A DNA stretch of 35,888 nucleotides from Candidatus Methanoperedens sp. BLZ2 (lineage in GTDB: Archaea; Halobacteriota; Methanosarcinia; Methanosarcinales; Methanoperedenaceae). Within the stretch, counting starts at the first letter, position 1. Each line of letters begins with the position of its first letter. The stretch lies in contig NZ_NTMG01000078.1 in assembly GCF_002487355.1 (NCBI RefSeq), positions 1-35,888 on the forward strand, written 5' to 3'. Below, one piece after another: positions 1,731 through 34,228 of the stretch. The notes under the pieces are model-generated. The model saw nothing but the letters and a program-made list of their open reading frames with translations, did not search any database and was not told the DNA's origin. Both the position numbers and the translations under genes were made by a program.

Positions 1731-2789
1731 ATGAAAACTGATTCCATAATAAGCTGCGGTTGCCTGCACCCGGATCACAAAGTCGCGATCAGATATTTTG
1801 AGGATGGAAAAGTCTATTCTGTCCAGATAGAATCCAATCTTGCCTGTTCCCAGGGCTGCCTCTACTGTTATGCCTCATCCACGGATGCTCCTCTAAAAGA
1901 ACTTCCGAAAAAGAACATAATTGAGGTGCTGGATTCAGCAGCCGATATGGGTGTCCTGGCTATTGACTGGCTTGGGGGCGATCCTCTTATGCGAAGTGAC
2001 TGGTATGAATTAATGAAGTATGCCATGGATAACGGATTAACAAACAATATCTGGACAAGCGGGATGCCATTAGAGAACTATGATGTGGCCAAAAGAGCAG
2101 TTGAGATGTCAGAAGGGGGTTTTATCTCGGTGCATCTTGACAGCCTGGATGAGGAAATATATGGAAAATTGCATACAGGTGACCCAAAACTAAAGATAAA
2201 TTCTATCCTGGAAGGGCTTGATAATATCCGGGCTCTTGGTAAGGATAACATCATTAATTGTATCACATTCACTAAACTTGTAGCAGGGGAAGACGTCAAT
2301 AAAACGATCAAATATTTCTTCGAGGATATGGGAATAAGAACCTGCCTTACCCAGATGTGCAAAGCAGGGCTTGCAGAGGGACATCCTGAATGGATCCCGG
2401 AAATCGGGGAAATAAAAGAAGCATGCAGTACAAGAGATAACGTTAATTACCAGGATTCTGCACTTTCCATGGGTTCAATGGATACCAATAAATTCTATTG
2501 CGGTGGGATGATTTGTGTGACCGTGGACGGGGATGTAACTCCATGTTCGGTGATCAGGAAAGGTTTTGGAAATATTCATACATCATCATTGGAAAATATT
2601 GTCGAACGATACCGGGATGACCTGCTCTTTACTCATATCAGGGATCCCGGGAAAATGCAGGGACACTGTGGGAGCTGTGAACATAATTCAGTGTGCTGGG
2701 GATGCAGGGCTACGGCATATTACGAATGCGGGGATATGCTTGCGCCAGACCCGAAATGCTGGATGAACTATCAAAAAATTTCATCATGA
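1731..2789 (+). CDS. Radical SAM/SPASM protein, AhbD/NirJ-like C-terminus
   Basis: 352 residues from the chosen ATG. The radical SAM CX3CX2C motif 'CSQGCLYC' (about residues 39-46) binds the 4Fe-4S cluster that cleaves S-adenosylmethionine, and 'LGGDPL' is the glycine-rich SAM-binding strand. The C-terminal cysteine-rich stretch (C..C near 'HCGSCEHNSVCWGC', then a late Cys before Trp) is a SPASM auxiliary-cluster domain. It closely resembles the tail of AhbD/NirJ-type tetrapyrrole enzymes, including the AhbD gene at 30580. It overlaps the next gene by ATGA, so translation is probably coupled. Substrate unknown. The position at the head of a hemL-hemC-cobA-hemD operon makes a tetrapyrrole or heme-peptide substrate plausible (inference). 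A ribosomal-peptide modifier is the main alternative, but no precursor peptide gene was seen. Confidence 0.8.
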   Translation: MKTDSIISCGCLHPDHKVAIRYFEDGKVYSVQIESNLACSQGCLYCYASSTDAPLKELPKKNIIEVLDSAADMGVLAIDWLGGDPLMRSDWYELMKYAMDNGLTNNIWTSGMPLENYDVAKRAVEMSEGGFISVHLDSLDEEIYGKLHTGDPKLKINSILEGLDNIRALGKDNIINCITFTKLVAGEDVNKTIKYFFEDMGIRTCLTQMCKAGLAEGHPEWIPEIGEIKEACSTRDNVNYQDSALSMGSMDTNKFYCGGMICVTVDGDVTPCSVIRKGFGNIHTSSLENIVERYRDDLLFTHIRDPGKMQGHCGSCEHNSVCWGCRATAYYECGDMLAPDPKCWMNYQKISS

Positions 2790-3634
2790 TTAATGTCAAC
2801 AACAAACAAATAGAACTGGTACTTATGAACGAAATTAGAAAAGGGAAAAAATTAGATTTTACCATAGCAGACGTAAATGAAATTTACGAGGGCCCTGTCG
2901 GTGTATTATGGGAGATACTGATGGGAGAACAGATCCACGTTGGCGGAGATTCACAAACAAATATCATGGCAAGAAAGGCTGGAGTGAATAAGAATACCAG
3001 CGTGCTTGATGTATGCAGCGCACTTGGCGGCCCGGCGCGGCACCTGGCAAGGAAGTTTGGGTGTAAAGTAACAGGTCTTGATGCCACAATGAAAATGGTG
3101 AACGAAGCCACAAAAAGAACCGAGAATGAAGGGTTAACGCATCTTATCACCTGTAAACCGGGGAATGCGCTGGATATGCCTTTTAAAGCTGCCGCATTTG
3201 ATATTGTCTGGGGGCAGGACGCATGGTGCTATGTAACTGATAAGGAGAGGCTCATAAAGGAAGCCCACAGGGTTTTAAAACCTGGAGGGATCATTGCTTT
3301 TACTGACTGGATACAGGCTGGTAATATGACAGACAGGGAATGGGAAGGCCTCAATAGTTTTATGGCTTTCCCTTATATGGAGTCACTCGCCGGATATGAG
3401 CAAATTTTAAAACAGAATGGTTTTGTTATTACCGAAAAAGAGGATATGACAACTGATTTTGCAAAGTACTGCCATATTTACCAGGACAGGGTCAGAAATG
3501 AACTTAAAGGAACGATTATTTCACAGTATGGCGCGCAAATGTGGAAGGCAGCCGATGATGGACTTGCATTATGGGTCAAAGCTGCCGATGAAGGAAAAGT
3601 TGGCTGGGGAAGAATAATAGGGAGAAAGGTTTGA
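2786..3634 (+). CDS. Class I SAM-dependent methyltransferase
   Basis: 282 residues from the ATG that overlaps the preceding stop codon (ATGA). An upstream in-frame ATG at 2693 lies well inside the radical SAM gene and is unlikely. Motif I 'VLDVCSALGGPARHLA' and the acidic post-I strand 'VTGLD' bind S-adenosylmethionine. 'FDIVWGQDAWCYV' and 'RVLKPGGIIAFTDW' are motifs II and III of the Methyltransf_11 fold. The layout resembles sarcosine/dimethylglycine or phosphoethanolamine N-methyltransferases (family knowledge). It lacks the cysteine pattern of arsenite methyltransferases. In context it probably methylates the product or substrate of the neighbouring radical SAM enzyme (inference). Confidence 0.75.
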   Translation: MINVNNKQIELVLMNEIRKGKKLDFTIADVNEIYEGPVGVLWEILMGEQIHVGGDSQTNIMARKAGVNKNTSVLDVCSALGGPARHLARKFGCKVTGLDATMKMVNEATKRTENEGLTHLITCKPGNALDMPFKAAAFDIVWGQDAWCYVTDKERLIKEAHRVLKPGGIIAFTDWIQAGNMTDREWEGLNSFMAFPYMESLAGYEQILKQNGFVITEKEDMTTDFAKYCHIYQDRVRNELKGTIISQYGAQMWKAADDGLALWVKAADEGKVGWGRIIGRKV

Positions 3635-3635
3635 T

Positions 3636-4346
3636 TTGACCCGGGAGAATGCTATCGTCATAATGGCCAAAGCGCCCTTACCCAACCAGGTAAAAACAAG
3701 GATGATCCCATCTCTTGACCCGGGGACAGTATCCGGCCTTTACCATAATTTCCTGCTTGATAAGATAGAACAGGTCAAAAATATTGAAGCGCAAGCTTTC
3801 ATTGCCTATACACCTGAAACTGAGTTTGCTTTCTTTCAAAGCATCGCACCTTCCGGATTCAATTTGATCAAACAGACCGGCTCCGGCCTGGGGGAGAGAC
3901 TGGCTAATATTTCAAGAAGTCTGTTTGAACAGGATTTTAAGAAAGTTTTAATGCTTGACAGCGATTCCCCAAACCTGCCTGTAGAGTATATAAAGAAAGG
4001 GTTGGAAAAACTCGATAATTGTGATATTGTCATTGGCCCATGTGAGGATGGAGGATATTACCTGATCGGCCTGAGGGAAAGCCAACCTCTGATTTTTGAA
4101 GGCATCCCCTGGAGTACATCCGGGGTAACAGAATTGACGATGAACAAAGCGCAAAGCTCAGGCTTGATCGTTTCTCTTCTTGAGAAGTGGTACGACATAG
4201 ATACAATAGAAGATCTCCAGCGATTAAAAAATGAAATGTATTCCTCAAACAACCAAAAAAACAGTTTTTTATGTAAAAATACCTGCTGTGCAATTCGCAA
4301 ACTTCAAGAGAAAACACAAATTATATTAGTTTATCCCCTAATTTGA
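3636..4346 (+). CDS. DUF2064/TIGR04282-type glycosyl- or nucleotidyl-transferase
   Basis: 236 residues with a TTG start one base after the previous stop. GGGAG at 3620-3624 and AGGT at 3627-3630 serve as ribosome-binding sites. The N-terminal motif 'MAKAPLPNQVKTRM' matches the K-P-x-x-G-x-V-K-T-R-L signature of DUF2064, a GT-A/CofC-like nucleotide-sugar fold. 'LMLDSDSPNLP' holds the DxD-type metal ligands and 'GPCEDGGYYLIGL' is also typical. The family is described as radical-SAM-associated glycosyltransferase 1, which agrees with the radical SAM gene two positions upstream. The normal fold ends near 'YDIDTIEDLQRL'. The roughly 40-residue Cys/Lys-rich tail after it is extra and may be non-conserved. 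Donor and acceptor are unknown. Confidence 0.75.
   Translation: MTRENAIVIMAKAPLPNQVKTRMIPSLDPGTVSGLYHNFLLDKIEQVKNIEAQAFIAYTPETEFAFFQSIAPSGFNLIKQTGSGLGERLANISRSLFEQDFKKVLMLDSDSPNLPVEYIKKGLEKLDNCDIVIGPCEDGGYYLIGLRESQPLIFEGIPWSTSGVTELTMNKAQSSGLIVSLLEKWYDIDTIEDLQRLKNEMYSSNNQKNSFLCKNTCCAIRKLQEKTQIILVYPLI
4318..4328 (+). promoter_or_regulatory. Possible internal TATA box ahead of hemL
   Basis: AAATTATATTA lies in the last codons of the preceding gene, about 30 bases before the hemL ATG. It could start a near-leaderless hemL transcript independent of the upstream operon promoter. There is no ribosome-binding site in front of hemL, which agrees with a leaderless start. Confidence 0.3.
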
Positions 4347-4353
4347 GTAATCC

Positions 4354-5619
4354 ATGGGAACAGAGAAATCAAGAAAATTATTCGATGAGGCGAAGAAGCT
4401 ACTCCCCGGCGGAGTAAGCAGCCCCGTCAGGGCAATAAAACCATATCCATTCTATACAAAAAGAGCGAACGGCTCAAAGTTAACTGATATTGATGGTAAT
4501 GAATATATCGATTACGTAATGGGTTACGGGCCATTGCTTCTTGGCCATAACCATCCTGCAATAAAGGAAGCTGTGATCAAACAGCTTGATGACGGCTGGC
4601 TTTATGGAACCCCGACCGAACTTGAAGTGTCTCTTGCGAATGAAATTATCAAAATATACAAGAGCATCGACATGGTGCGATTTGTCTCCACAGGAACCGA
4701 AGCGACAATGGGGGCTCTGCGCGCAGCAAGAGGTTTCACCGGGAAGAACAAATTCATCAAGATAGAAGGGGGCTTTCATGGCGCACATGACGCGGCGCTT
4801 GTAAAAGCGGGTTCAGGCGCAACAACCCTTGGCACGCCCGATTCTGCCGGAGTCCCTAAGGATTTCACGAAGAATACACTCCAGGTGCCATATAACGATA
4901 TCGAGGCCATGACAGAAGCGATTGAAGCCTATAAAGATGATGTTGCGGCAGTAATTATGGAGCCCGTACTTGGAAATATCGGGCCGATATTACCAAAAAA
5001 AGGATATCTGAACGATGTCCGCGCAGTAACAAAAGAAAATGATGTTGTATTGATCCTGGATGAAGTGATCACAGGATTCAGGCTTGCCATGGGTGGGGCG
5101 CAGGAGTATTACGGTATAACTCCTGATATGACTACCTTAGGGAAGATACTTGGCGGCGGTTTCCATATCGGTGTGATCGGGGGAAAGCGTGAAATAATGG
5201 AGAAAATTTCACCTGCCGGGCCTGTTTACCAGGCAGGAACATTCAATGGCAGCCCGGTTTCGATGACAGCAGGGCTTGCCATGATAAAAACACTCAAAAA
5301 AGAGAAAGTCCATGGCAAAGTGAATAGCGCAGGGGATTCATTAAGGTCAGAGTTATCCGATATCATAACCGATATCGGGCTTGATTACAACGTGAGCGGT
5401 GTGGGGAGCATGTTTAAGGTATTCTTCGGGGATATGCCTTCTAATTATCAGGAAGCCCTGAAATGCGACACAGCTAAATTCAATGTATTTTTCAAGAAAA
5501 TGCTTGATGACGGCATCTTCCTGCCCCCGTCTCAGTTCGAGACTAACTTCCTGTCACTTGCCCATTCAAAAGATGACATAGAAAAAACATTAAAAGCTTA
5601 CCAACGGAACCTGAAATGA
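4354..5619 (+). CDS. hemL: Glutamate-1-semialdehyde 2,1-aminomutase
   Basis: 421 residues, full family length. This cytosolic PLP enzyme converts glutamate-1-semialdehyde to 5-aminolevulinate in the C5 tetrapyrrole pathway. '[19 protein letters not shown]' binds PLP phosphate, '[11 protein letters not shown]' carries the Asp that pairs with the PLP ring nitrogen, and Lys264 in '[10 protein letters not shown]' is the expected Schiff-base lysine. The N-terminal '[12 protein letters not shown]' is diagnostic of HemL rather than ordinary class III aminotransferases. It is followed by hemC with an ATGA overlap. The partners hemA and hemB are not in this window. Confidence 0.96.
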
Positions 5620-6557
5620 AAAATCCCAAAAAACCATTGCGTATAGGAACAAGGGGCAGCAAACTGGCTCTTGCCCAGGCAAATCTCGTGAAAGATCTTC
5701 TTTCAAAAAACGGAATAGATACGGAAATTAAAATAATCAAAACATCAGGTGATACATTCACAGACAGGCCGCTGCATGAAGTGCAGGGTTTCGGGGTCTT
5801 TGTGCGTGAAATCGACGATATGATGCTGGCTGGCGAGATAGATATCGCTGTCCACAGCATGAAGGATGTTCCTACCGAACGTCCTCCTGAACTAACAATA
5901 GCTGCTGTAATGAAACGCGACTCACCCTATGATTTCCTGCTTACACGCAACAATACGAAATTAAAAGATCTTCCTGAGGGTTCAATCATTGGAACAACGA
6001 GCTTGAGACGGCGCGCCCAGCTATCCAGGTACAGATCAGGTTTTATCATAAAGGAGCTACGCGGTAATATCGACACACGTCTTCGTAAACTTAAGGAAGG
6101 GCAATATGACGGTATTTTCCTTGCGCAAGCCGGACTTGAGAGACTGAAATGGGATCTGCCCGGAGAACGCCTTGATCCTGACGATTTTGTCCCATCTGCT
6201 AACCAGGGAACAGTGGTCATAGTTACCAGGAAAGATTCAGAAGCGCAAAATGCAGTCCTTGTTTTAAATGACGAACAGACGCGGCTTGAGACAAGGATCG
6301 AACGCATAATAATCGGGATCCTTGGCGGCGGCTGCCTTGTTCCCATCGGGGCTTTCGCACAAACAGAGGGAAATGAAATACATGTCCGTACTGAAGTTCT
6401 CTCAGTGGATGGGAAGCGTTGCGTAAAAATAGATGAATTTATAAACCCCGCTGAGTATGAAAAGGAAGCCAAGCGAATCGGTAATGAGTTGAATAAAAAA
6501 GGCGGCGGCAAACTTGTTGATGAGGCAGTAAAAATGTTTGCAGCCAAAAGAGGATAA
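5616..6557 (+). CDS. hemC: Porphobilinogen deaminase (hydroxymethylbilane synthase)
   Basis: 313 residues. It polymerises four porphobilinogen units to hydroxymethylbilane. '[14 protein letters not shown]' is the N-terminal signature. '[12 protein letters not shown]' includes catalytic Asp84, 'SLRRRAQL' and '[12 protein letters not shown]' bind the acidic substrate, and Cys240 in 'GGGCLVP' is the attachment residue for the dipyrromethane cofactor. The ATG overlaps the hemL stop by four bases, so translation is coupled. All key residues are present and the length is normal. Confidence 0.96.
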
Positions 6558-6559
6558 TA

Positions 6560-7297
6560 ATGAACGGGAAAGTTTATCTTGTAGGCTCAGGTCCAGGTGA
6601 CCCGGAGCTTCTGACGATCAAAGCAAAAAGACTAATAGAGAGCGCCGAGGTCATTCTTTATGACCAGCTTCCTGGTAAAGCGATACTTGACATGCTGCCG
6701 GAATCGGCAGAGAAAATCGATGTTGGTAAATATGCCGGGAACCATAAGCTTTCCCAGTGGCAGATAAATGAGCTTCTTGTCAAAAGGGCAAAAGAAGGAA
6801 AGATCGTCCTGCGCTTAAAAGGCGGAGACCCGTATCTATTCGGCCGCGGAGGCGAGGAAGCCCAGACTCTTGCAGCAGAAGGTATCAAGGTCGAGGTAGT
6901 ACCAGGGATCACTTCAGCAATTGCAGTCCCTGCTTATGCAGGAATTCCAATTACGCATCGCGATTATGCATCCATGGTCACTTTCATAACAGGACATGAA
7001 GATCCTGACAAGGAAGAAACAGCTCTTAACTGGGAACTTCTTGCAAAATTTGAAGGAACACTTGTTATCCTGATGGGCGTCAGTATGCTGGAACGTAATG
7101 TAAAGGAATTAATGAAACATGGTAAATCCGTAGATACACCGGTAGCTGTTATCGAAAGAGGAACACGGCCCGACCAGCGGGTCACTATTGGAACGCTCGC
7201 TGATATTGTTGGTCTTTGTAAACAGCGAAAGGTGAAAGCTCCGGCAGTAACCGTAATAGGTGATGTTGTAAAACTGCATCATGAACTTGCTCCCTGA
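6560..7297 (+). CDS. cobA: Uroporphyrinogen-III C-methyltransferase
   Basis: 245 residues. It transfers two methyl groups from S-adenosylmethionine to uroporphyrinogen III, making precorrin-2, the branch point to siroheme, cobamides and, in archaea, coenzyme F430 and siroheme-derived heme. 'VYLVGSGPGDPELLT', 'LRLKGGDPYLFGRGGEE' and 'VPGITSAIAVPAYAGIPITHR' are the three SUMT signatures. It is the single-domain form, without the CysG dehydrogenase/chelatase. It begins two bases after the hemC stop. Confidence 0.95.
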   Translation: MNGKVYLVGSGPGDPELLTIKAKRLIESAEVILYDQLPGKAILDMLPESAEKIDVGKYAGNHKLSQWQINELLVKRAKEGKIVLRLKGGDPYLFGRGGEEAQTLAAEGIKVEVVPGITSAIAVPAYAGIPITHRDYASMVTFITGHEDPDKEETALNWELLAKFEGTLVILMGVSMLERNVKELMKHGKSVDTPVAVIERGTRPDQRVTIGTLADIVGLCKQRKVKAPAVTVIGDVVKLHHELAP

Positions 7298-7306
7298 TAG
7301 ATCGAA

Positions 7307-8077
7307 ATGAAAGTAATAGCCATTATGAGACCTGCCGGTTACCTGGCAGAGTCTGTCAAACTTGCATCTTCAATGGGTTTTTCCACTATAACAGCGCCTA
7401 TGATCGATGTAATGGATAAAACCGATTCAAATTTCAAAGGGTTCCTGGATCGCATAATGGGGGGAGAGGCAGATTATATCATATTCACAAGCGCTAACGG
7501 GGTCGAGTTCACTTTATTGAAAATTAAATACCCTGATGAATTTATTGAACGGCTCAATGAAACCAATGTTATAGCGATCGGCCCGAAGACAAGAGATGCA
7601 TTGTTGAAAAACGGAATTCACGTCACTATGATGCCCGGTTCTTACAGTTCTACAGGTCTTGTTAAAGAACTTTCAGGAATAGAAGGAGCAAATATCGAGA
7701 TCGCAAGGAGCAGCCATGGAGCTCCTGAACTTGTAAGAGGTCTTCTTGAAAAAGGAGCAGTTGTGCATGAGACCCAGGTATATCAGATCATCAGCCCAAA
7801 AGATGAACGACATGTTGCGCTTTTCAAACGGGCGCTTGCAGGTGAAGTGGATATTTTTGCATTCACAAGCACAATGATGGTCAGGAATTTCATGGCGCTT
7901 GCCCAGGAAATGGGAGAAAAAGATGAAATCATCAGGATTATGAATCAAAAGGTGGTAGCAGCTATTGGTAAACCCACTCGTGATACATTGATCGGGTTTG
8001 GGGTAAATGTGGGTGTCATTCCCGAACATTATACTTTTGAGGAAATGCTCCTTGAGTGCAAGAAGCATGATTGTTGA
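7307..8077 (+). CDS. hemD: Uroporphyrinogen-III synthase
   Basis: 256 residues. It cyclises hydroxymethylbilane with inversion of ring D to uroporphyrinogen III. The family is poorly conserved, but the two-domain pattern is visible: 'MRPAGYLAESVKLA', 'DYIIFTSANGVEFTL' (the TS/NG motif), 'VIAIGPKTRDALLKNGI', 'DIFAFTSTMMVRNFM' and the closing 'VVAAIGKPTRDTLIGFGV'. It lies nine bases after cobA as last gene of the operon, followed by a convergent gene. Confidence 0.9.
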   Translation: MKVIAIMRPAGYLAESVKLASSMGFSTITAPMIDVMDKTDSNFKGFLDRIMGGEADYIIFTSANGVEFTLLKIKYPDEFIERLNETNVIAIGPKTRDALLKNGIHVTMMPGSYSSTGLVKELSGIEGANIEIARSSHGAPELVRGLLEKGAVVHETQVYQIISPKDERHVALFKRALAGEVDIFAFTSTMMVRNFMALAQEMGEKDEIIRIMNQKVVAAIGKPTRDTLIGFGVNVGVIPEHYTFEEMLLECKKHDC

Positions 8078-8142
8078 CTTACTAAAAGGGAAAAAATAGT
8101 ATTTTGATAAGGAAAAAGTAGAGAGGATATGTTCATTCCATG

Positions 8143-11100
8143 TCACTTCCTCCCCGTCAGATAATCGATCATCGGCTGGGTAACAAGCGGCACGACATCA
8201 TCGATCATATGCGGCATCAGGTTATCCATGACCTTTGGTAAAAGTTCAGGCATCTGCTCTGCCATATATGCAGGCATTGGAATTATCTTTCCAATTTTTT
8301 CAAGCATCACTGGCATTACCTCTGGCATCATCTTCGGAAGAAGGATCGGGAATAGCACAGGGAACAATGGCTTCATCAGCGTAAGAGCCCCCGGTACTTT
8401 GCCCATCGCCCGCATCATCGGCCCCATTCCATAAGGCATTGCATCGATAAGCTCAGGCCACATGGTTCCCATAAGATCTGCAAATCCCCTGGGTGTCATA
8501 AGGGCTATCATCTTCTCAAAGACAGCCCATTGCACCTGTACTTCAGGTTTGGGATCGGGGAAATCATATCCCAGGGCTGATGAAGCAAAAGTCGCAAGAT
8601 CAACCACTTCGATCGGAATTTTTCTTGCATCTGCGCTTACCCTGAGCTGGAACTGGCAGCACGGGCAAAGAGCAAGAACCTTTTGTGCGCCTGCTTCAAC
8701 AGCTTCATCAAGACGTATCTTTCCAATACCTGCTGCCGTTTCTGGCTCCTTCAGGAGCGTCAGCACAGAGCCGCAGCAGTGAGCCTTTTCCCTGTTTGAG
8801 CTCATCTCAACGAACCTGACACCAGGAATTGCCTTTATAACATCACGCGGCGGGTCGTAAACACCTGATGCGCGTCCAATATGGCATGAATCATGCCACG
8901 TCACCGTAACAGGTTTTTCCACGCCGGTTTTGAACTTGAACTCACCGGATTTGATTTTCTCTGATACGACTTCACTATAATGCTTTGTGTTTATCTTGTA
9001 ATCGATACCGAGTTTTTCTGACCATTCAGGATATACCTGCCGCCACATCATATCACATGCAGGGCAGGAAGTAATCACAGTATCAGCTCCGGCTGCTTTA
9101 ACCGCGCTGATATTCTTTTTCATGGTTTTTTCAAAGGTATCCCATTTGCCTGCCACCAGCATTGGCGTAGCACAGCAGTTCTCCTTCTCGCCAAGATACG
9201 TAAAATCAACATTTGCCGCATCAAGGAGGCGCACGCTTGCCATACCTATGTCTTTTTCAACAAAACTTGCTGTGCAGCCAGCAAAATAAACATTCTTTGA
9301 TTTATGCATGGGTCCATGCTTTTCCTTAAGGTTCTCAGGGAACCATTTTGAACGGTCTTTCCTGTAACCTGCCCAGATATTTCCCTGTGAATTCAGAGCT
9401 TCTGTCATCATCTCAAATGGCGGGAAAGTCATCTTCTTTTCATCATTTATCAGTTTGCCGCGAAGCTTCATCCATGAAGGTTCGATTGGCAATGCTGCCG
9501 AGCAGCGCAGGTTACAAAGCTCACAAGTCGTGCATGAAATGACCGTGTCCACCATCTTCTGGTCCCATTCAACGTGCCCTTCCATGTACTCCCGCAGCCA
9601 GTACCATTTACCTCTTGGGCTCTGGCTTTCCCAGCCGCGCCCATAGAACTGGTCACATTCATCAATGCAGTAGCCACACTGGGAGCAGCTGTAAGCATAC
9701 CATGCCACATCTGCCGGGATATCCCCTACCTGTTTTTGCGGCCTTTCGCCAATAGTAGTAGTAACGGAATTTCCAAGCGGACGGATAACCGGCTCAAAAG
9801 TGCCAGCTATATCCAGGGCTATTCCCATAAGGCTGCTGCCTGTGACCTTTCCGGGATTCATTATATTTTTCGGATCGGTCTTGTTTTTGAAAGTCCGTAA
9901 TCGATCCATTCTTTCTTTACCTAATATGGAGTCAGCTTTTTTCGAGAAATATAAGCCTGTGGCATAGGGTCTCCCGCCATGTTTTTGTGCGATCTTCATA
10001 ATTGAAAGCACAAGACCGAATACGAAACTGTAACTGAATTTTCGCTGGTCGCCGGGAATAAATCCCAGGATGACAACTTCAGGTTCACCGTTTATCCCGT
10101 TACGGATGATCACGCCTTCCTTTACTATTGGCTGGAAAACCTTGTTCTGGATCTCACCCATTACATCGCCAAGGCTTGAAAGCGGAATTATTACCTCAGC
10201 AGGTACAAGTGAAGGGCCAAGCCGCTTTACGACCATGAGTTTGAAACGATTTTCCCATTCATGCCCTGCAATTTTGTCACTCAGGACTTCAGCTCCAAAT
10301 GAATTCACAAGATCAGGAAGTGCTGCCCTGACAGTTGAACTGTCTTTTTTACGAAAAGCAAGTGTAAGAATATATTTAGCAGGAAGCATTACACGCTCTT
10401 GTGCTGCATGACCGCCGTGTTCCATAACAGGAGCGCGGTTTTTCATTTCAGCCATCTGCGGGTTGATAAATACCATTGACCATATAGGAAGCTTTGATCC
10501 AATGATAGTATTCACAAGTTCCTGCAGCCGATTTGCATCAGGACAGGCAAGCCCTGCAACTTCAATATCTTCATAAGGCTGTATACGCAGCGTCACTTCT
10601 GTAATTAGTCCTGTTATGCCTTCCGCATCAGCTATTAACTCAAGTTCATCACCTGCAAAATCCTTTACCTCACCTGATGGTAATACCACTTTTGCCCTGA
10701 CAACATTTTCACGAAAATAGCCGTACTCATAGCTTCCGATACCTGCGCCGCCCTGCGCCAGCCATCCTCCCACAGTTGAAGAAGGATAACTTGTGGGATA
10801 TAACCTGATCGTCAGGTTTTGTTTTTTTAGTTCTGCATCAAGCTTCTCCCAGGTGATCCCGGGCTGTACTGTGACAATAAGGTTATTGGCATCGATAGCA
10901 AGGACTTTTTTCATCCTGTAAAAATCCACAACTATACCTTTTTTGACTGGAATTGCTCCCCCATATCCGGAAGTAGCCTTGCCTCTCGGTGTCAGGGGAA
11001 CATTACTTAGGACTGCCCATTTTACTATCTCAATGAGTTCTTCCTCATTTTGAGGCTGAACTACAGCGTCAGGCGTTGTATTGCCAATTAAAGGCTTCAC

Positions 11101-14236: not shown

Positions 14237-17200
14237 TTAAGGCTTCTGTTCCTCCTTAGGCTCCTTCATCTCTTCCAGCGTCACCTGCACAGCTTTCTCC
14301 TCCCCAGCCGTTTCCTCCTCCTTCGCAAGCGTAGCCACGCCCACGACCCTGTCCTTTTCCCCGACATTCATTATCTTCACACCCTGCGTATTCCTGCCCT
14401 GCACGCGTATTCCGCTTGCAGGCACACGGATAATGATGCCGTTTGAAGTCGTGACCATGATCTCATCATCTTCACGGACTGTCCTGATATCCACGACATT
14501 TCCATTCCTGATATTGACATCGATAGTGATAACACCCTGGCCGCCGCGGTTGCTTGTGCGATACTCATCAAACACGGTGCGCTTCCCGAAACCGTTCTCG
14601 GTCACAGTTAGAAGGGTTGCGCCTTCCTCCACGACTGCCATGCTGACGACTTCATCCTCGCCTACAAGCCTTACACCCCTCACTCCGTATGCGCTTCGTC
14701 CCATATCCCTTACATCATTCTCGTTGAACCTGATGGCTTTCCCGTGCTTGGTCCCGATCACCATTTCTTTTGTACCATCCGTGAGCTTCACGGATACAAG
14801 TTTATCCCCTTCATCAAGAGAGATGGCGATAATACCTGTTTTCCTGACATTTGCAAAATCAGTAAGCTGCGTCTTCTTGGCCGTACCTTTCTTTGTGACC
14901 ATCAAAAGGTAGTGCTTCTCATCAAATTTACTGATCGGTATGTACGCAGTGATCTTTTCACCCTGCTCAAGCTGCAGCAGGTTGACGATTGCAGTGCCTC
15001 GCGCCTGTCTTCCAGCTTCGGGTATTCCATATACTTTCAGCCAGTAAACTTTTCCTTTGTCTGTAAAGAAAAGGAGATAATCATGAGTATTGCCGATAAA
15101 GAGGTCGCTTACGAAATCCTCTTCCTTGGTCTCCATACCCATGACACCCTTCCCTCCGCGGCGCTGCTGTTTATATGAATCCACTGCAATGCGTTTGATG
15201 TAACCGCTATTGGTTATTGTGATAACATCATCTTCTTTCGGGATTAAGTCCTCAGTCACACGGTCACCTGTACTTTCAATTATTTCGGTCCGCCTCTTAT
15301 CTGAAAAGCGGGCTTTGATATCTGCAAGTTCTTCTTTTATAAGAGCAAGTATTTTTATTTCACTTCCCAGGAGTTCCTTGAGCCATGCAATAGTTTTCTG
15401 GAGCTCCCCATACTCAGCATCGATCTTCTCGCGCTCAAGACCGGTGAGCCTCTGGAGCCTCATATCAAGGATAGCCTTTGCCTGCTCAATACTCAGACCG
15501 AACTGTGACATAAGACCATCGCGCGCTTCATCAGGTGTCTGTGATGCTCTTATGAGCTTGATAACTTCATCGATATGGTCAAGCGCGATTATCAAACCTT
15601 CGAGTATATGAGCGCGTGCCTGTGCTTTCTTGAGCTCGAACTGGCTGCGGCGTATTATGACCTGCTTCCTGTGGGATATAAAATTGATGATCAATTCTTT
15701 TAATGGCAGGACCATCGGGCGCCCATCCACAAGAGCGAGGTTGATAACACCAAAAGTGGTCTCAAGCTGTGTGTGTGAGTAAAGCTGGTTTAAAATGATG
15801 TTGGCCTGCGCCTGTCGTGATATCTCAATGACGACGCGGATTCCATCCTTGTCGGATTCATCGCGAAGGTCGGTTATCCCTGCGATCTTCTTATCCCGGA
15901 CAAGGCCTGCAATATCTTCGATCATTTTTGCTTTATTCACCTGATAGGGAAGCTCACTAATGATGATCGTTTCCTTGTTTTTCACTTCCTCGATTATTGC
16001 GCGGGCGCGCATCTTTATTGAGCCGCGGCCTGTGGAGTACGCATCCCGGATCCCCTGTCGGCCATAGATAAAACCCGCCGTTGGGAAATCAGGTCCTTTG
16101 ACTGCGGTCATGAGTTCGTTCCATTCCACAGCAGGATTATCGATTACCATCGTTATTCCATCTATCACTTCGCCAAGATTATGGGGCGGCATATTGGTCG
16201 CCATGCCCACGGCAATACCTGTAGAACCATTGATAAGAAGGTTCGGGAGCTTGCATGGAAGAACAGAGGGCTCTTTTAATGAATCATCATAGTTTGGAAC
16301 GAAATCCACGGTTTCTTTATCGATATCACCAAGTATCTCGTCTGCGATCTTTCCGAGGCGGACTTCAGTGTATCGCATCGCAGCGGCGCTGTCGCCATCG
16401 ATAGAATTGTGAACGAACACTCCGCATGCGAGTAAGAAATTGTGATATTTATCAACGGAAATATCATATGTATCGACACGTTCCTCAAGGAACCGTTTGG
16501 ATATTATACGATGGTTATAGTTTTTAGCTGTATGCAGAAGATGATCGAAATCATTAAAATATTTTAGGGCATTTTCAATACGAGGGATCCAATTCATATT
16601 CCTGTTTTCACTATAAACCTCTGGAGTGACCACCTCATATTTCTTTAATAATTGTGCTACATAGCCTGCGATCTTTTGGCGCATGACAATGTTCTTATAT
16701 TCTGGGTCAGTCCATTTTTCAACAAGTTTGGAGGCCGCATGCGCTGCAAGTTCCGACATCATTATGGGATTTTGCTGCATTCGAGACTGATTGCTTTGAA
16801 CGACCCCGTTCCTTTGAGCCTCACGGAAAGCCTGGTCTTGCCGCTGTTCTGCGATTTTTTCTCGATGCATTGCTCGTGTTTCCGGTTTTTCCCAGCATTT
16901 GTGAGCCATTTTAGAAAAGTGATCTTCGGGATACTTTGCTCGATATTCCGGATTCTGCCAATTGCGCCTGGAATTTTCGCTCAGTTTTGCCCGCACTTTT
17001 TCAGATGACAAAGCGAGAGAAATAGCTTCAACAATTTCAGCACGCTTTTCATCATTCGCCCACATTTTCTTGCTTTTTTCAGAAATTATCTGCGTTACTC
17101 TTGCTTTTTCTTCGGGTGATAGCTTACGTTTCTCAATATTGGCAAGCGCAACTTTCATTCTGGCGCAATAATCCTCATCTTCCCATAACGCTTTCATCCT

Positions 17201-18322
17201 CTTTGAAATATCAGCGCATGCATTGGGGTTCTCTATGAAATATTTCTTCATCCCGATTGAACTGCGAAGTGCATTTTCCTTGCGGAATTCTTCATCCTGA
17301 TTCTGGTTCTTGAACCTTAACCGGCGTTCTTCAAGCACTTCTGGATGCTCATCGTAATAGCGCTTCACACCCTGTTTTTGTCTCTCGCGGAATTTGTCAT
17401 CTTCCCATAATTCTGTGATATATTCTGCATGTAAATGCAGATGTTCCAGAAATTCCATGCGTTCTATATTGGTTGGACGGTTATCCATCCGATCAAAATT
17501 CTTGTGATGCCGGACGAATGCTCCTCCAAATCCCCGTGCTATTCCTTTTTGGAAGTTGAATTCGTCAACAAGATGATGTACAAAATCATATTCTCCAGAG
17601 GCAGGCTGTAACACTCTCAGGTAATCATTAAGCCCTTCTTTAACTGGAATGGTATCAAAGTATCCTGGCATAAGACTATCATCGATAGTGAGATCCTGCG
17701 CCTCTTTATATGTGCCATCGCGCAGCATGAATCTGTGGTCTGGCGTGCAGCGTATCTTTTCACCACTATCGATAGTCAATTCTATGAGTTCTGCGTTACG
17801 GCGGGTTATCCGGGAATTTTTGCCTTCCCCAACTACAATATGCCCTTTATCATCAACTGAGTATACATAAAAAACATCATCAGGGCTTAAACTGGCAAGT
17901 TCCTCAAACGATTTTTCAGTACCGTCTAACAGTTTGATCTTAGTATCGCCTGTAAAACAGCCAAAGTTTCCCTGTCCATCTATCAAAGGATATCGTAAAG
18001 AAAACTCCTGTACCATCCTTACGAGAGAATCGTAAACAGCGATATCGCCGTGCGGGTGGTACTTACCAAGAACGTCTCCCACGATCCTTGCTGATTTTTT
18101 GTAAGGCTTATCGTGGGTCATCCCCTGCTCGTTCATCGCATAAAGGATGCGCCGGTGCACGGGCTTCAGGCCGTCCCTGACATCAGGGAGAGCGCGGCCA
18201 ACTATGACGCTCATCGCATAATCGATGTATGAGCGCTTCATTTCATCCTCGATATTGACCAGGGTGATCTTTTCCGGTACAAGGATTTGCTGTTCTGGTT
18301 CTGTGGATTCTGGTTCTGGCAT
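14237..18322 (-). CDS. gyrA: DNA gyrase subunit A, intein-containing precursor
   Basis: 1361-residue precursor; removing a 518-residue intein leaves 843 residues, normal for GyrA. It is the breakage-reunion subunit of the ATP-dependent type IIA topoisomerase that adds negative supercoils. 'LPDVRDGLKPVHRRILYAM' and 'SARIVGDVLGKYHPHGD' form the DNA-gate helix region. The catalytic Tyr is in 'AAAMRYTEV' (residue 651 of the precursor, 133 mature). 'KQQRRGGKGV' is the GyrA box that wraps DNA and marks a true gyrase rather than topoisomerase IV. It starts five bases after the nucleotidyltransferase stop; GAGCTGAT just upstream may be the ribosome-binding site. gyrB lies 2.1 kb upstream on the same strand. 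Confidence 0.97.
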   Translation of the reverse strand: MPEPESTEPEQQILVPEKITLVNIEDEMKRSYIDYAMSVIVGRALPDVRDGLKPVHRRILYAMNEQGMTHDKPYKKSARIVGDVLGKYHPHGDIAVYDSLVRMVQEFSLRYPLIDGQGNFGCFTGDTKIKLLDGTEKSFEELASLSPDDVFYVYSVDDKGHIVVGEGKNSRITRRNAELIELTIDSGEKIRCTPDHRFMLRDGTYKEAQDLTIDDSLMPGYFDTIPVKEGLNDYLRVLQPASGEYDFVHHLVDEFNFQKGIARGFGGAFVRHHKNFDRMDNRPTNIERMEFLEHLHLHAEYITELWEDDKFRERQKQGVKRYYDEHPEVLEERRLRFKNQNQDEEFRKENALRSSIGMKKYFIENPNACADISKRMKALWEDEDYCARMKVALANIEKRKLSPEEKARVTQIISEKSKKMWANDEKRAEIVEAISLALSSEKVRAKLSENSRRNWQNPEYRAKYPEDHFSKMAHKCWEKPETRAMHREKIAEQRQDQAFREAQRNGVVQSNQSRMQQNPIMMSELAAHAASKLVEKWTDPEYKNIVMRQKIAGYVAQLLKKYEVVTPEVYSENRNMNWIPRIENALKYFNDFDHLLHTAKNYNHRIISKRFLEERVDTYDISVDKYHNFLLACGVFVHNSIDGDSAAAMRYTEVRLGKIADEILGDIDKETVDFVPNYDDSLKEPSVLPCKLPNLLINGSTGIAVGMATNMPPHNLGEVIDGITMVIDNPAVEWNELMTAVKGPDFPTAGFIYGRQGIRDAYSTGRGSIKMRARAIIEEVKNKETIIISELPYQVNKAKMIEDIAGLVRDKKIAGITDLRDESDKDGIRVVIEISRQAQANIILNQLYSHTQLETTFGVINLALVDGRPMVLPLKELIINFISHRKQVIIRRSQFELKKAQARAHILEGLIIALDHIDEVIKLIRASQTPDEARDGLMSQFGLSIEQAKAILDMRLQRLTGLEREKIDAEYGELQKTIAWLKELLGSEIKILALIKEELADIKARFSDKRRTEIIESTGDRVTEDLIPKEDDVITITNSGYIKRIAVDSYKQQRRGGKGVMGMETKEEDFVSDLFIGNTHDYLLFFTDKGKVYWLKVYGIPEAGRQARGTAIVNLLQLEQGEKITAYIPISKFDEKHYLLMVTKKGTAKKTQLTDFANVRKTGIIAISLDEGDKLVSVKLTDGTKEMVIGTKHGKAIRFNENDVRDMGRSAYGVRGVRLVGEDEVVSMAVVEEGATLLTVTENGFGKRTVFDEYRTSNRGGQGVITIDVNIRNGNVVDIRTVREDDEIMVTTSNGIIIRVPASGIRVQGRNTQGVKIMNVGEKDRVVGVATLAKEEETAGEEKAVQVTLEEMKEPKEEQKP
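16406..17959 (-). other. GyrA intein (518 residues) with HNH-type homing endonuclease
   Basis: Begins with Cys ('CFTGDTKIKLLDG', block A), has 'CTPDHRFML' (block B, intein residues 71-79) and ends 'NFLLACGVFVHN' (block G, His-Asn), followed by Ser as +1 residue. Splicing residues are therefore complete. It interrupts GyrA between 'DGQGNFG' and 'SIDGDSAA', 11 residues before the catalytic Tyr. That differs from the mycobacterial GyrA intein site at the Tyr itself. Intein residues about 126-180 contain 'VRHHKNFDRMDNRPTNIERM' with later His residues, an HNH-like nuclease core. About 250 residues of charged modules containing W-x-D/N-x-E-x-R follow, probably DNA-binding modules. The C-terminal splicing block starts near 'YNHRIISKRFLEERVDTYDI'. 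Confidence 0.9.
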
Positions 18323-20430: not shown

Positions 20431-23040
<2,610 letters not shown>

Positions 23041-30107: not shown

Positions 30108-30575
30108 TTACTTTATATTGAACTTTACTCCGATCTTGAACAATCTCTTCGTAGGCAAATTCCTGAGCTCACATCCGGTCTTCTCTTTAAGTTCTTCAAG
30201 AATTTCATTTAACCTTTCTTCGCTTTCGGCTGAAACTGTGAACCAGACGTTAAAATTAGCAGGCCGCAGATAATTATGCGATACTTCTTCATATTCATTG
30301 ATAATAGCTGCAACTTCATCCACTCTCTCAGGCTGTACTTTCATTGCAACAAGCGTACCCATACCACCAGTTTTCTTTGTGCTTATTATGGGACCTATGC
30401 GCCTTATAGCGCCTTCTTTCTGGAGCCGCTGGATTCGTCTTATTACATCCTCCTCCTCCAGCCCCAGGTTTTTTCCCAACTCCTCGAAAGGTTTATTCAC
30501 AAGGGGAAAGTTTATCTGAATTGCATTCAATATCTTTTTATCAATATCATCCAGCGAAATTTTAGATAGAGCCAA
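30108..30575 (-). CDS. Siroheme decarboxylase subunit (AhbA/AhbB type, Lrp/AsnC-like)
   Basis: 155 residues from a TTG start at 30575, chosen because GAGGG lies 10-15 bases upstream and the product then begins 'ALSKISLDDIDKKILNAIQ', as in the family. Longer ATG starts (30599, 30686) overlap ahbD. The N-terminal winged helix ('LGLEEEDVIRRIQRLQKEGA', 'IRRIGPI') is followed by the AsnC-like ligand domain with 'HNYLRPANFNVWFTVSAESE' and 'LPTKRLFKIGVKF'. The H-N-Y-L-R and F-N-x-W-F-T words are diagnostic of AhbA/AhbB, which decarboxylate siroheme to 12,18-didecarboxysiroheme. The partner subunit and AhbC are not in this window. It cannot be decided here whether this is A or B. Confidence 0.85.
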   Translation of the reverse strand: MALSKISLDDIDKKILNAIQINFPLVNKPFEELGKNLGLEEEDVIRRIQRLQKEGAIRRIGPIISTKKTGGMGTLVAMKVQPERVDEVAAIINEYEEVSHNYLRPANFNVWFTVSAESEERLNEILEELKEKTGCELRNLPTKRLFKIGVKFNIK

Positions 30576-30579
30576 AAAA

Positions 30580-31644
30580 TCACTTCCCTCTTGATCCATA
30601 TACGCAATACGGCTCTTCTTCCAGGTAATCTCCCGTACCTGCATATGCCCTGGCGCGGCAGCCGCTGCATACATTCTTGTACTCACATATACCGCATTTG
30701 CCTTTCAGCAGTCCGGGGTCGCGAAGGTCGCAAAAAACCTTTGATTTCTCCCATATCATCTTAAAAGGTTTTTGCTTGATATTCCCGGCCAGGGCAGGGA
30801 GATATCCGCATGGATAAACATCGCCTTTACTGGAGACAAAACAGAAAGCTGAGCCTCCAAGGCATCCTTTGGTCATAGCTTCAAGACCGTGGGTTTCAGG
30901 TGTGATCCGTATCCCTTCTGCCTTTGCACGCTGCCGCATTATCCTGAAATAATGAGGTGCACATGTGGCTTTTAACTGCATTCTTTTGTCCTTGCTTTTG
31001 TCATAGAACCAGTTAAGCACCCGTTCATATTCCTCAGGCGGGATTTCTTCAGATTCTATTTCTTCGCCCCTTCCTGTCGGGACAAGAAGGAAAATATGAA
31101 GGGCTGATGCTTTGAGTTCAATAGCAAGATCATAGATTCGCGGGATTTCTTTAAGATTTCTCTGTGTGATCGTGGTATTTATCTGGAAACCCAGACCTTC
31201 TTTTTTCAGGATATCAATTGCACGAAGAGATGCTTCAAATGCACCTGGCTCTCCCCTGAAAACATCATGCATTTCCCCGGTTGCCCCGTCAATGCTAATG
31301 CTTACCCGCTGGATTCCCGCATCTTTTAATTTCCTGGCAATCTCAGGAGTAAGAAGCGTACCATTTGTCGCAAGCACCGCACGCATTCCTTTTCCTTTTA
31401 TGTATTGCGCTATCTCATATATATCAGCCCGAAGCAGTGGCTCTCCTCCGGTGAGGATTATTATCGGCTTGTACTCGACCAGTTCATCTACGAAATGCTT
31501 TGCCTCGGCTGTGGATAATTCTCCGGGCTGCGGCTCTTTAATTGCAGATGCCCTGCAGTGGATGCAGGCAAGGTTGCAGGCATTGGTCAGCTCCCATGCG
31601 ATGAGTCTTGGGGGTTTAACTTTTTGTTCTATCAATAAAATCAC
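30580..31644 (-). CDS. ahbD: AhbD heme synthase (radical SAM/SPASM)
   Basis: 354 residues with a GTG start. '[20 protein letters not shown]' contains the CX3CX2C cluster (Cys23, 27, 30), '[20 protein letters not shown]' binds SAM, and the C-terminal '[14 protein letters not shown]' plus late 'EEEPYCVYG' is the SPASM auxiliary cluster. '[20 protein letters not shown]' is typical of AhbD. It converts Fe-coproporphyrin III to heme b by decarboxylating two propionates, the last step of the siroheme-dependent pathway. The decarboxylase-subunit gene follows after four bases on the same strand. It is probably AhbD rather than AhbC because of the P-R-L-I-A-W-E-L-T opening. Confidence 0.85.
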
Positions 31645-32941: not shown

Positions 32942-34228
32942 ATGTCTGATGGAAAAAATGATTTAATTAAAAAATTGAACAGCTTTGAAGCAGATCAACT
33001 ATTGGGGGAATTAAAGTCTCGTCCAAAGAAAGTAAGATCTAGCGGACCTTTTCAAGATGTTGATTCAGCTACGATTGCTAAAGTATTGAAAGATAAGCAA
33101 AAGGCAATATACGGTGTAGACGATAGAAAAGATTTATTCCTAGTTGACGATCAAGGAATTCTCAATGATGCCGATTGCGTGGTAAGTTTATTTCAGAATA
33201 GAGAGGTTGTGGACAATGGTGATGGTACATCTACACTTGCAGTAAAAAATTTTGGTACAGAATATAACTTATGCAATAATGAACGTTTTAGAGAGCAACC
33301 AACCGGAGCCTTTTGTTCTGGTTTTCTGGTAGCTCCAGACCTTGTAGCTACTGCAGGACATTGTGTCAATCCAAGCAACGTAACTAATATACTATTTGTC
33401 TTTGGGTTTAGAATGGTAGATGAAACAACACCACATACTAATATCGATAACAATGAAATCTATCGTGGTTTAAAAGTAATAGATCGAAAAGAAATATCCG
33501 ATGGTTCTGATTGGGCAGTTGTCAAATTGGAAAGAGCAGTCGCAAATCATAGGATTACTGATTTTAGAAGAACGGGGATAATACAGAATAATCAAGCTGT
33601 CCATGTAATCGGGCATCCATGTGGACTTCCTACTAAATTTGCAGGTGGAGCGAGAGTTCGCGATAACACATCCGGTGAATTTTTTGTTGCGAATTTAGAT
33701 ACTTATGGAGGCAATTCAGGTTCGCCAGTTTTCAATAGTGATACTCATCAGGTTGAAGGAATTTTAGTAAGAGGAGCAACAGATTTTGCTAGTTCTAACG
33801 GTTGCGACGTTTCTCTTGTATGTCCAAGTTCAGGCTGCAGGGGTGAGGACTGCACAAAAACTACCGAATTTTCATATCTATTTGGGCAAGAAAACGGGCC
33901 AGAAGTTATTTTGTTGGACACGACAATTTCATCCATGCTGCCTGATAAAGACAGCATTAAAGAATATGTTATTAAAGGAATTGAAAGTGGTAAAAAACTC
34001 ATTATAAATTTAGAGGGGCCAGAAGGGCAGGATTTTGACTTATATGTTAAATTTGGGTCACTGGCAAAAGTTGATGATTGGGATTCTCGCGGTTATACCT
34101 CTGACCCTAATGAAGAGGTAACAATTGACCCAACCGAACAGGGAGATTATTATATCACAGTGCACGCTTTTGCTGGTAAAGGTAATTTTAATCTTAAAGC
34201 CAATACTATGTCAAGCGAAAATGATTAA
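32942..34228 (+). CDS. Trypsin-fold (V8-like) serine protease with C-terminal PPC domain
   Basis: 428 residues. 'AIYGVDDRKDLFLVDDQGIL' is the usual pre-catalytic stretch of V8-like proteases. The triad is visible: His140 in 'VATAGHCV', Asp190 in 'GSDWAVVKL' and Ser259 in 'YGGNSGSPVF'. Several Cys ('CSGF', 'GHC', 'SGCRGEDC') could form disulfides. Residues about 335-420 ('FDLYVKFGSLAKVDDWDSRG', 'GDYYITVHAFAGKGNFNLKA') form a PPC (bacterial pre-peptidase C-terminal) domain. There is no signal peptide: the N-terminus is charged ('MSDGKNDLIKKLNSFEADQL'). Location is thus unclear: cytoplasmic, or exported by a non-Sec route. Closest relatives that I know are bacterial, and the gene is AT-rich, both of which fit lateral acquisition. 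Confidence 0.9.
   Translation: MSDGKNDLIKKLNSFEADQLLGELKSRPKKVRSSGPFQDVDSATIAKVLKDKQKAIYGVDDRKDLFLVDDQGILNDADCVVSLFQNREVVDNGDGTSTLAVKNFGTEYNLCNNERFREQPTGAFCSGFLVAPDLVATAGHCVNPSNVTNILFVFGFRMVDETTPHTNIDNNEIYRGLKVIDRKEISDGSDWAVVKLERAVANHRITDFRRTGIIQNNQAVHVIGHPCGLPTKFAGGARVRDNTSGEFFVANLDTYGGNSGSPVFNSDTHQVEGILVRGATDFASSNGCDVSLVCPSSGCRGEDCTKTTEFSYLFGQENGPEVILLDTTISSMLPDKDSIKEYVIKGIESGKKLIINLEGPEGQDFDLYVKFGSLAKVDDWDSRGYTSDPNEEVTIDPTEQGDYYITVHAFAGKGNFNLKANTMSSEND

Follow-up and report, generated by a model that had tools for sequence, protein, structure and literature searches.

What is made by three closely packed genes that lead directly into a tetrapyrrole operon in 'Candidatus Methanoperedens sp. 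BLZ2'? The genes lie within the first 35,888 nucleotides of contig NZ_NTMG01000078.1, the whole of which was analysed and is referred to here as the window. A first-pass annotation of this DNA had proposed that the trio could produce a modified tetrapyrrole or another cofactor whose supply is tied to porphyrin synthesis. We identified the following genes:

1731..2789, plus strand: first gene of the trio, radical SAM/SPASM protein of 352 aa, ATG start at 1731, with Radical_SAM and SPASM domains
2786..3634, plus strand: class I SAM-dependent methyltransferase of 282 aa (Methyltransf_11, 77 bits)
3636..4346, plus strand: TIGR04282/DUF2064 transferase of 236 aa, related to CofC, with a TTG start (TIGR04282, PF09837)
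4354..8077, plus strand: hemL-hemC-cobA-hemD operon, adjoining the trio

The ATG at 1731 agrees with the starts of homologues, the methyltransferase ATG (2786) overlaps the stop codon of the radical SAM gene (2789) in the sequence ATGA, and hemL begins at 4354, leaving a 7-nt gap after the DUF2064 gene. Pfam and NCBIfam matches support the assignments of the radical SAM protein (PF04055, 60 bits; PF13186, 28 bits, above cutoff) and the DUF2064 protein (PF09837, 106 bits; TIGR04282, 181 bits against a cutoff of 134), and hemL (593 bits), hemC (318), cobA (323) and hemD (277) each score above their own cutoffs. The ORFs, overlaps and family matches thus confirm that a tightly coupled trio runs into hemL-hemC-cobA-hemD.

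We gathered radical SAM homologues from named genomes, 34 genomes of the family, 393 of the phylum and 293 of the phylum of a Thermoplasmatota member, and placed seven window proteins and the partners found later at each locus by tblastn. The radical SAM and methyltransferase genes were both visible at 33 archaeal loci. A hem operon is nearby in only 3 of these, the window and loci L021 and L023; the radical SAM proteins of these two loci share at least 90% identity with that of the window and fall in one clade with it. In L023, approximately 2.7 kb of other genes separate the trio from the hem operon, and in the close sister L022 the place of the operon is taken by an unrelated gene. Since hem adjacency is limited to the window and two close relatives, the position next to hemL is recent, and the hem link of the trio is local. 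Conservation of the trio beside hem genes, which the first-pass annotation had suggested checking, therefore fails at all but three very close loci, a distribution that the annotation itself had named as speaking against its proposal, and the flanking-ORF comparison found no tetrapyrrole genes among the recurrent neighbours. The window encodes the true heme enzymes at a different position:

30583-31644, minus strand: heme b synthase AhbD (TIGR04545, 573 bits, cutoff 500)
30111-30686, minus strand: siroheme decarboxylase subunit AhbA, beside AhbD (AhbA-AhbD region 30108-31644)

The claim that the radical SAM protein has an AhbD/NirJ-like SPASM tail holds in part. It shares a radical SAM core and SPASM tail with AhbD, NirJ and TIGR04053 enzymes, the similarity is strongest over the last ~90 residues, and its best scores are to the TIGR04053, AhbD and NirJ2 models. 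However, these scores reach only one-seventh to one-quarter of the curated cutoffs (AhbD 105 bits against 500, NirJ2 92 against 500, NirJ 77 against 515), and the protein is neither AhbD nor NirJ. A radical SAM enzyme acting on siroheme or coproheme from the adjoining operon would suit the 7-nt gap and the kinship of the SPASM tail, but the trio has no conserved hem neighbour and the window has its own AhbD and AhbA. We rejected a tetrapyrrole pathway on distribution and family scores, and consider it largely refuted and extremely improbable.

The trio belongs to a larger conserved unit, a five-gene cassette in which a TIGR04283 family-2 glycosyltransferase (GT2) gene is divergent from a gene for a membrane protein of ~218 aa, followed by the radical SAM, methyltransferase and DUF2064 genes; the hem operon lies outside it. 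At each of the 33 archaeal loci that could be tested, the radical SAM gene directly neighbours the methyltransferase gene, a gene order far from chance. DUF2064 is adjacent in 28 of the loci, GT2 lies within the fetched stretch in 22 and the membrane gene in 16. Most gaps between cassette genes are shorter than 100 nt. When all flanking ORFs of 80 aa or longer were compared with one another, no additional family came up at five or more loci. In the genome that contains the window, the membrane gene and GT2 (TIGR04283, 191 bits against a cutoff of 182) are apart from the trio: they neighbour each other in divergent orientation on contig C49 (2301-2951 and 3149-3835). As suggested earlier, the genes do look like a pathway not yet described, in which DUF2064 is a transferase associated with radical SAM enzymes, and a literature search turned up no published description of the five-gene cassette.

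Joint presence and absence across 34 Methanoperedenaceae genomes supports a single system. The radical SAM gene occurs in 11 of them and the membrane gene in exactly those 11, whereas 23 genomes are without the cassette, providing a natural experiment. TIGR04282 is also present in 11 genomes, namely 10 of the 11 radical SAM carriers and one incomplete genome, and this co-presence holds even where DUF2064 is unlinked (G008, G012 and G015). The hypergeometric chance of these patterns, with phylogeny ignored, is 3.5e-9 for the membrane gene and 8.9e-7 for TIGR04282. Among the 393 phylum genomes, the radical SAM gene was detected in 16 and the membrane gene in 4, all of them radical SAM carriers. 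As the membrane gene was not found in the other 12 carriers of this sample, and GT2 is missing beside some radical SAM genes, the membrane gene is not universal and the pathway may vary.

Cassette loci span Methanoperedenaceae, other Halobacteriota, Thermoplasmatota and Bathyarchaeota, an assignment that rests on matches in named genomes with each phylum sampled in part. Within the phylum, 136 genera were sampled and 7 of them have the cassette; some carriers are Methanomicrobiales (Methanoregula). On the bacterial side the deep search covered plasmids, so a restriction to archaea is not implied. The cassette behaves as an accessory unit: its patchy presence over several archaeal phyla, together with the placement of Methanoperedens radical SAM sequences in separate groups of a tree with long branches and open forks, fits an accessory and possibly horizontally moved trait.

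The cysteines of two regions of the radical SAM protein are invariant in all 33 sequences:

1845..1868, plus strand: CxxxCxxC motif (C39, C43, C46), predicted to bind the SAM-cleaving 4Fe-4S cluster
2499..2759, plus strand: SPASM region (PF13186) with C257, C262, C272, C313, C316, C322, C325 and C343

Residues C177 and C205 are also kept in 33/33 sequences. The motif, the SPASM cysteines and the PF13186 match place the protein in the SPASM superfamily. We draw only two points from a tree with long branches and unsettled bootstrap: the cassette proteins form one clade, with three solitary, distant Thermoplasmatota homologues inside the same fork, and they stand apart from ArsS. The Thermoplasmatota relatives at L088, L089 and L090 (33-36% identity) are without cassette genes, some lie beside HTH regulators, and they may differ in role. 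The genome with the hem-adjacent locus L021 carries a second radical SAM copy, 85% identical to that of the window, at a contig end (L024, G024:C21), which is either a duplicate or the result of a mixed assembly. An alignment search detected no relative of the radical SAM protein among viral contigs, and PHROGs gave generic matches only.

The nearest solved relative of the radical SAM protein is, weakly, PqqE. SPASM domains are common in peptide maturases, and TIGR04283 is named for the mycofactocin-type glycosyltransferase (glyco_like_mftF). The cassette might thus make a ribosomal peptide (RiPP), matured by the SPASM enzyme and then methylated and glycosylated, much as the mycofactocin cluster combines a SPASM radical SAM enzyme (MftC) with a family-2 glycosyltransferase (MftF). 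However, neither an MftA-like precursor nor an MftB-like peptide chaperone was seen with the cassette, and no maturase model reached its cutoff. Kinship with peptide-modifying enzymes that have precursor genes was the other finding named in advance as speaking against the first-pass proposal; in a scan of linked ORFs of at least 80 aa, the cassette offers no further recurrent gene, and there is little intergenic room for a precursor. We regard a peptide product as very unlikely.

The methyltransferase model (pLDDT 86) and profile searches match best to sarcosine/dimethylglycine and phosphoethanolamine N-methyltransferases (fold matches 2o57 and 3bus). Two sites are of particular relevance to this comparison:

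2885..2887, plus strand: codon of invariant Tyr34, aligned to Tyr19 of the Plasmodium phosphoethanolamine methyltransferase (profile alignment, 3uj6)
3218..3232, plus strand: motif D145-A-W-C148-Y149, in which D145 aligns with Asp128 of the Plasmodium enzyme and invariant Y149 replaces His132

Tyr19, Asp128 and His132 have catalytic roles in the Plasmodium enzyme. Y19F, H132A and D128A mutants of that enzyme appear in PDB titles. The class I fold and the Tyr and Asp positions are therefore shared with the phosphoethanolamine, sarcosine and dimethylglycine N-methyltransferases (3uj6, 2o57), whereas the histidine of the Tyr-His pair is replaced by Tyr149, which adjoins the invariant Cys148, and the protein scores 120 bits to NF041675 against a cutoff of 550. 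Without the catalytic histidine of the N-methyltransferases, the methylated atom is not predictable.

The proximity of this enzyme to those making trimethyl amines raises the possibility of a methylated aminopentanetetrol (APT) or similar amine headgroup of archaeal phospholipids, with the N-methyltransferase-like enzyme forming the di- or trimethyl amine and the transferases attaching the headgroup and sugars. Methanomicrobiales are known to have N-methylated APT headgroups (PMC6423904, PMC2686161, PMC11346949), and the cassette carrier Methanoregula belongs to this order. However, APT is reported to characterise Methanomicrobiales at the level of the order and to be absent from Methanosarcinales, while the cassette is confined to few of the sampled phylum genera and extends to Methanoperedenaceae, Thermoplasmatota and Bathyarchaeota. 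Nor does APT synthesis seem to require a radical SAM reaction. We regard an APT-type product, too, as very unlikely.

The DUF2064 protein, whose nearest solved relative is 3cgx, keeps K20, D110 and G139-G140, and GT2 keeps H86-x-D88 and E166-D167; these are residues expected of active enzymes. The membrane protein has no Pfam or NCBIfam match and no match on plasmids, and its model (pLDDT 86) gave no significant match in the PDB, the best hits (E 0.56) being 7-helix receptors found by chance. Its many invariant polar residues (D37, R39, H42, N43, E107, H127, H138, R147, E161 and N170) suggest that it holds an active site and is not a simple anchor. In the Bathyarchaeota locus L026, a second copy (7468-8631, 33% identical) follows a ferritin-like domain in a fusion protein, which hints at a role linked to metals or redox.

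TIGR04282 and TIGR04283 are both annotated as arsenosugar transferases and lie beside ArsS on plasmids. A Thiodictyon plasmid carries in a row a GT2 glycosyltransferase, a membrane protein of sterol-desaturase type, ArsS and TIGR04282, and an Acinetobacter (A. portensis) plasmid carries ArsS, TIGR04283, TIGR04282, an ArsM-like methyltransferase, MTA phosphorylase and a sterol desaturase. The archaeal cassette resembles these clusters: both transferase families are present (each above its cutoff), along with a radical SAM enzyme, a membrane protein and a SAM methyltransferase, and the gene order is similar. In contrast to the bacterial clusters, its radical SAM protein is of SPASM type and not ArsS, its methyltransferase is N-methyltransferase-like and not ArsM, its membrane protein is unrelated by BLAST to the sterol desaturase, and MTA phosphorylase is lacking. 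The ArsS model TIGR04167 had no match in the genome of the window at E<=1e-20 and exceeded its cutoff in one of 295 phylum genomes. ArsM requires multiple conserved cysteines. Among 32 methyltransferase sequences of the cassette, C148 alone is invariant, with C77 in 25 and C93 in 22, and the arsenite methyltransferase 8xt7 matches at E=7e-6 only, with ArsM relatives scoring weakly. Direct membership in the arsenosugar clusters was rejected on the ArsS and ArsM comparisons. By the tests made, the cassette parallels an arsenosugar cluster in plan and is not a member of one.

In an archaeal counterpart of the arsenosugar pathway, the methyltransferase would methylate trivalent arsenic and the radical SAM enzyme would add a 5'-deoxyadenosyl group, with DUF2064 and TIGR04283 finishing the dimethylarsinoyl glycoside or arsenolipid. 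The parallel layouts and shared transferases favour such a route, C-As bond formation by radical SAM enzymes is known from the biosynthesis of arsenosugars and arsinothricin (PMC12159101, PMC8552651), and the patchy spread suits an accessory detoxification trait. On the other hand, by search and tree the radical SAM protein is not ArsS, the methyltransferase is closest to N-methyltransferases with a single invariant cysteine, and no arsenic gene was recognised among the recurrent flanking genes. We consider this route unlikely, although clearly less so than the peptide or APT products. A Methylobacterium plasmid (L101) carries TIGR04282 with GT87, a third kind of radical SAM protein, GT2 and an aminotransferase, a combination that is uncharacterised. 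As TIGR04282 occurs there beside an unrelated radical SAM protein, the transferases are not diagnostic of arsenic and do not fix the product, a warning for the use of the arsenosugar names borne by TIGR04282 and TIGR04283.

Given that the cassette lies almost always away from heme genes and resembles bacterial arsenosugar gene sets, its product is probably a small molecule that is methylated and linked to a sugar, rather than a modified heme. We favour the view that the trio supplies three of the five genes of an archaeal cassette dedicated to biosynthesis, most likely of a small methylated, glycosylated metabolite or lipid headgroup. From the gene families, their conserved order, their joint presence and absence and the conserved residues, we infer the nature of this product and each of its reactions. 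The SPASM radical SAM enzyme may make or remodel a bond on a small substrate through 5'-deoxyadenosyl radical chemistry, and the methyltransferase, with its small-amine N-methyltransferase fold and altered active site, may methylate the substrate or an intermediate, so that the two would together yield a small core. DUF2064 might then activate or transfer a nucleotide-linked sugar or phospho-group and TIGR04283 add a sugar, with the membrane protein serving in a last step at the membrane, in anchoring or in product export.

More tentatively, the cassette may represent an unrecognised pathway in anaerobic archaea, including the methane-oxidising Methanoperedens. It would combine a radical SAM/SPASM enzyme of a new family with an altered enzyme of N-methyltransferase type and a membrane protein whose fold is unrecognised, and would yield a glycosylated metabolite or lipid headgroup not seen before, perhaps an organoarsenical formed by enzymes other than ArsM and ArsS. 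An organoarsenical or new lipid headgroup would change the reading of arsenic cycling or of archaeal biomarkers in methane-oxidising sediments. In place of a loose heme guess, the locus now offers a defined five-gene unit with predictable partners.

Elsewhere in the window, both gyrase genes contain inteins (PF14890, Intein_splicing), at residues 132-639 of gyrA (14237-18322, minus strand) and residues 439-658 of gyrB (20431-23022, minus strand). A gene at 32942-34228 (plus strand) of this archaeal genome encodes a trypsin-like protease with a pre-peptidase C-terminal domain.
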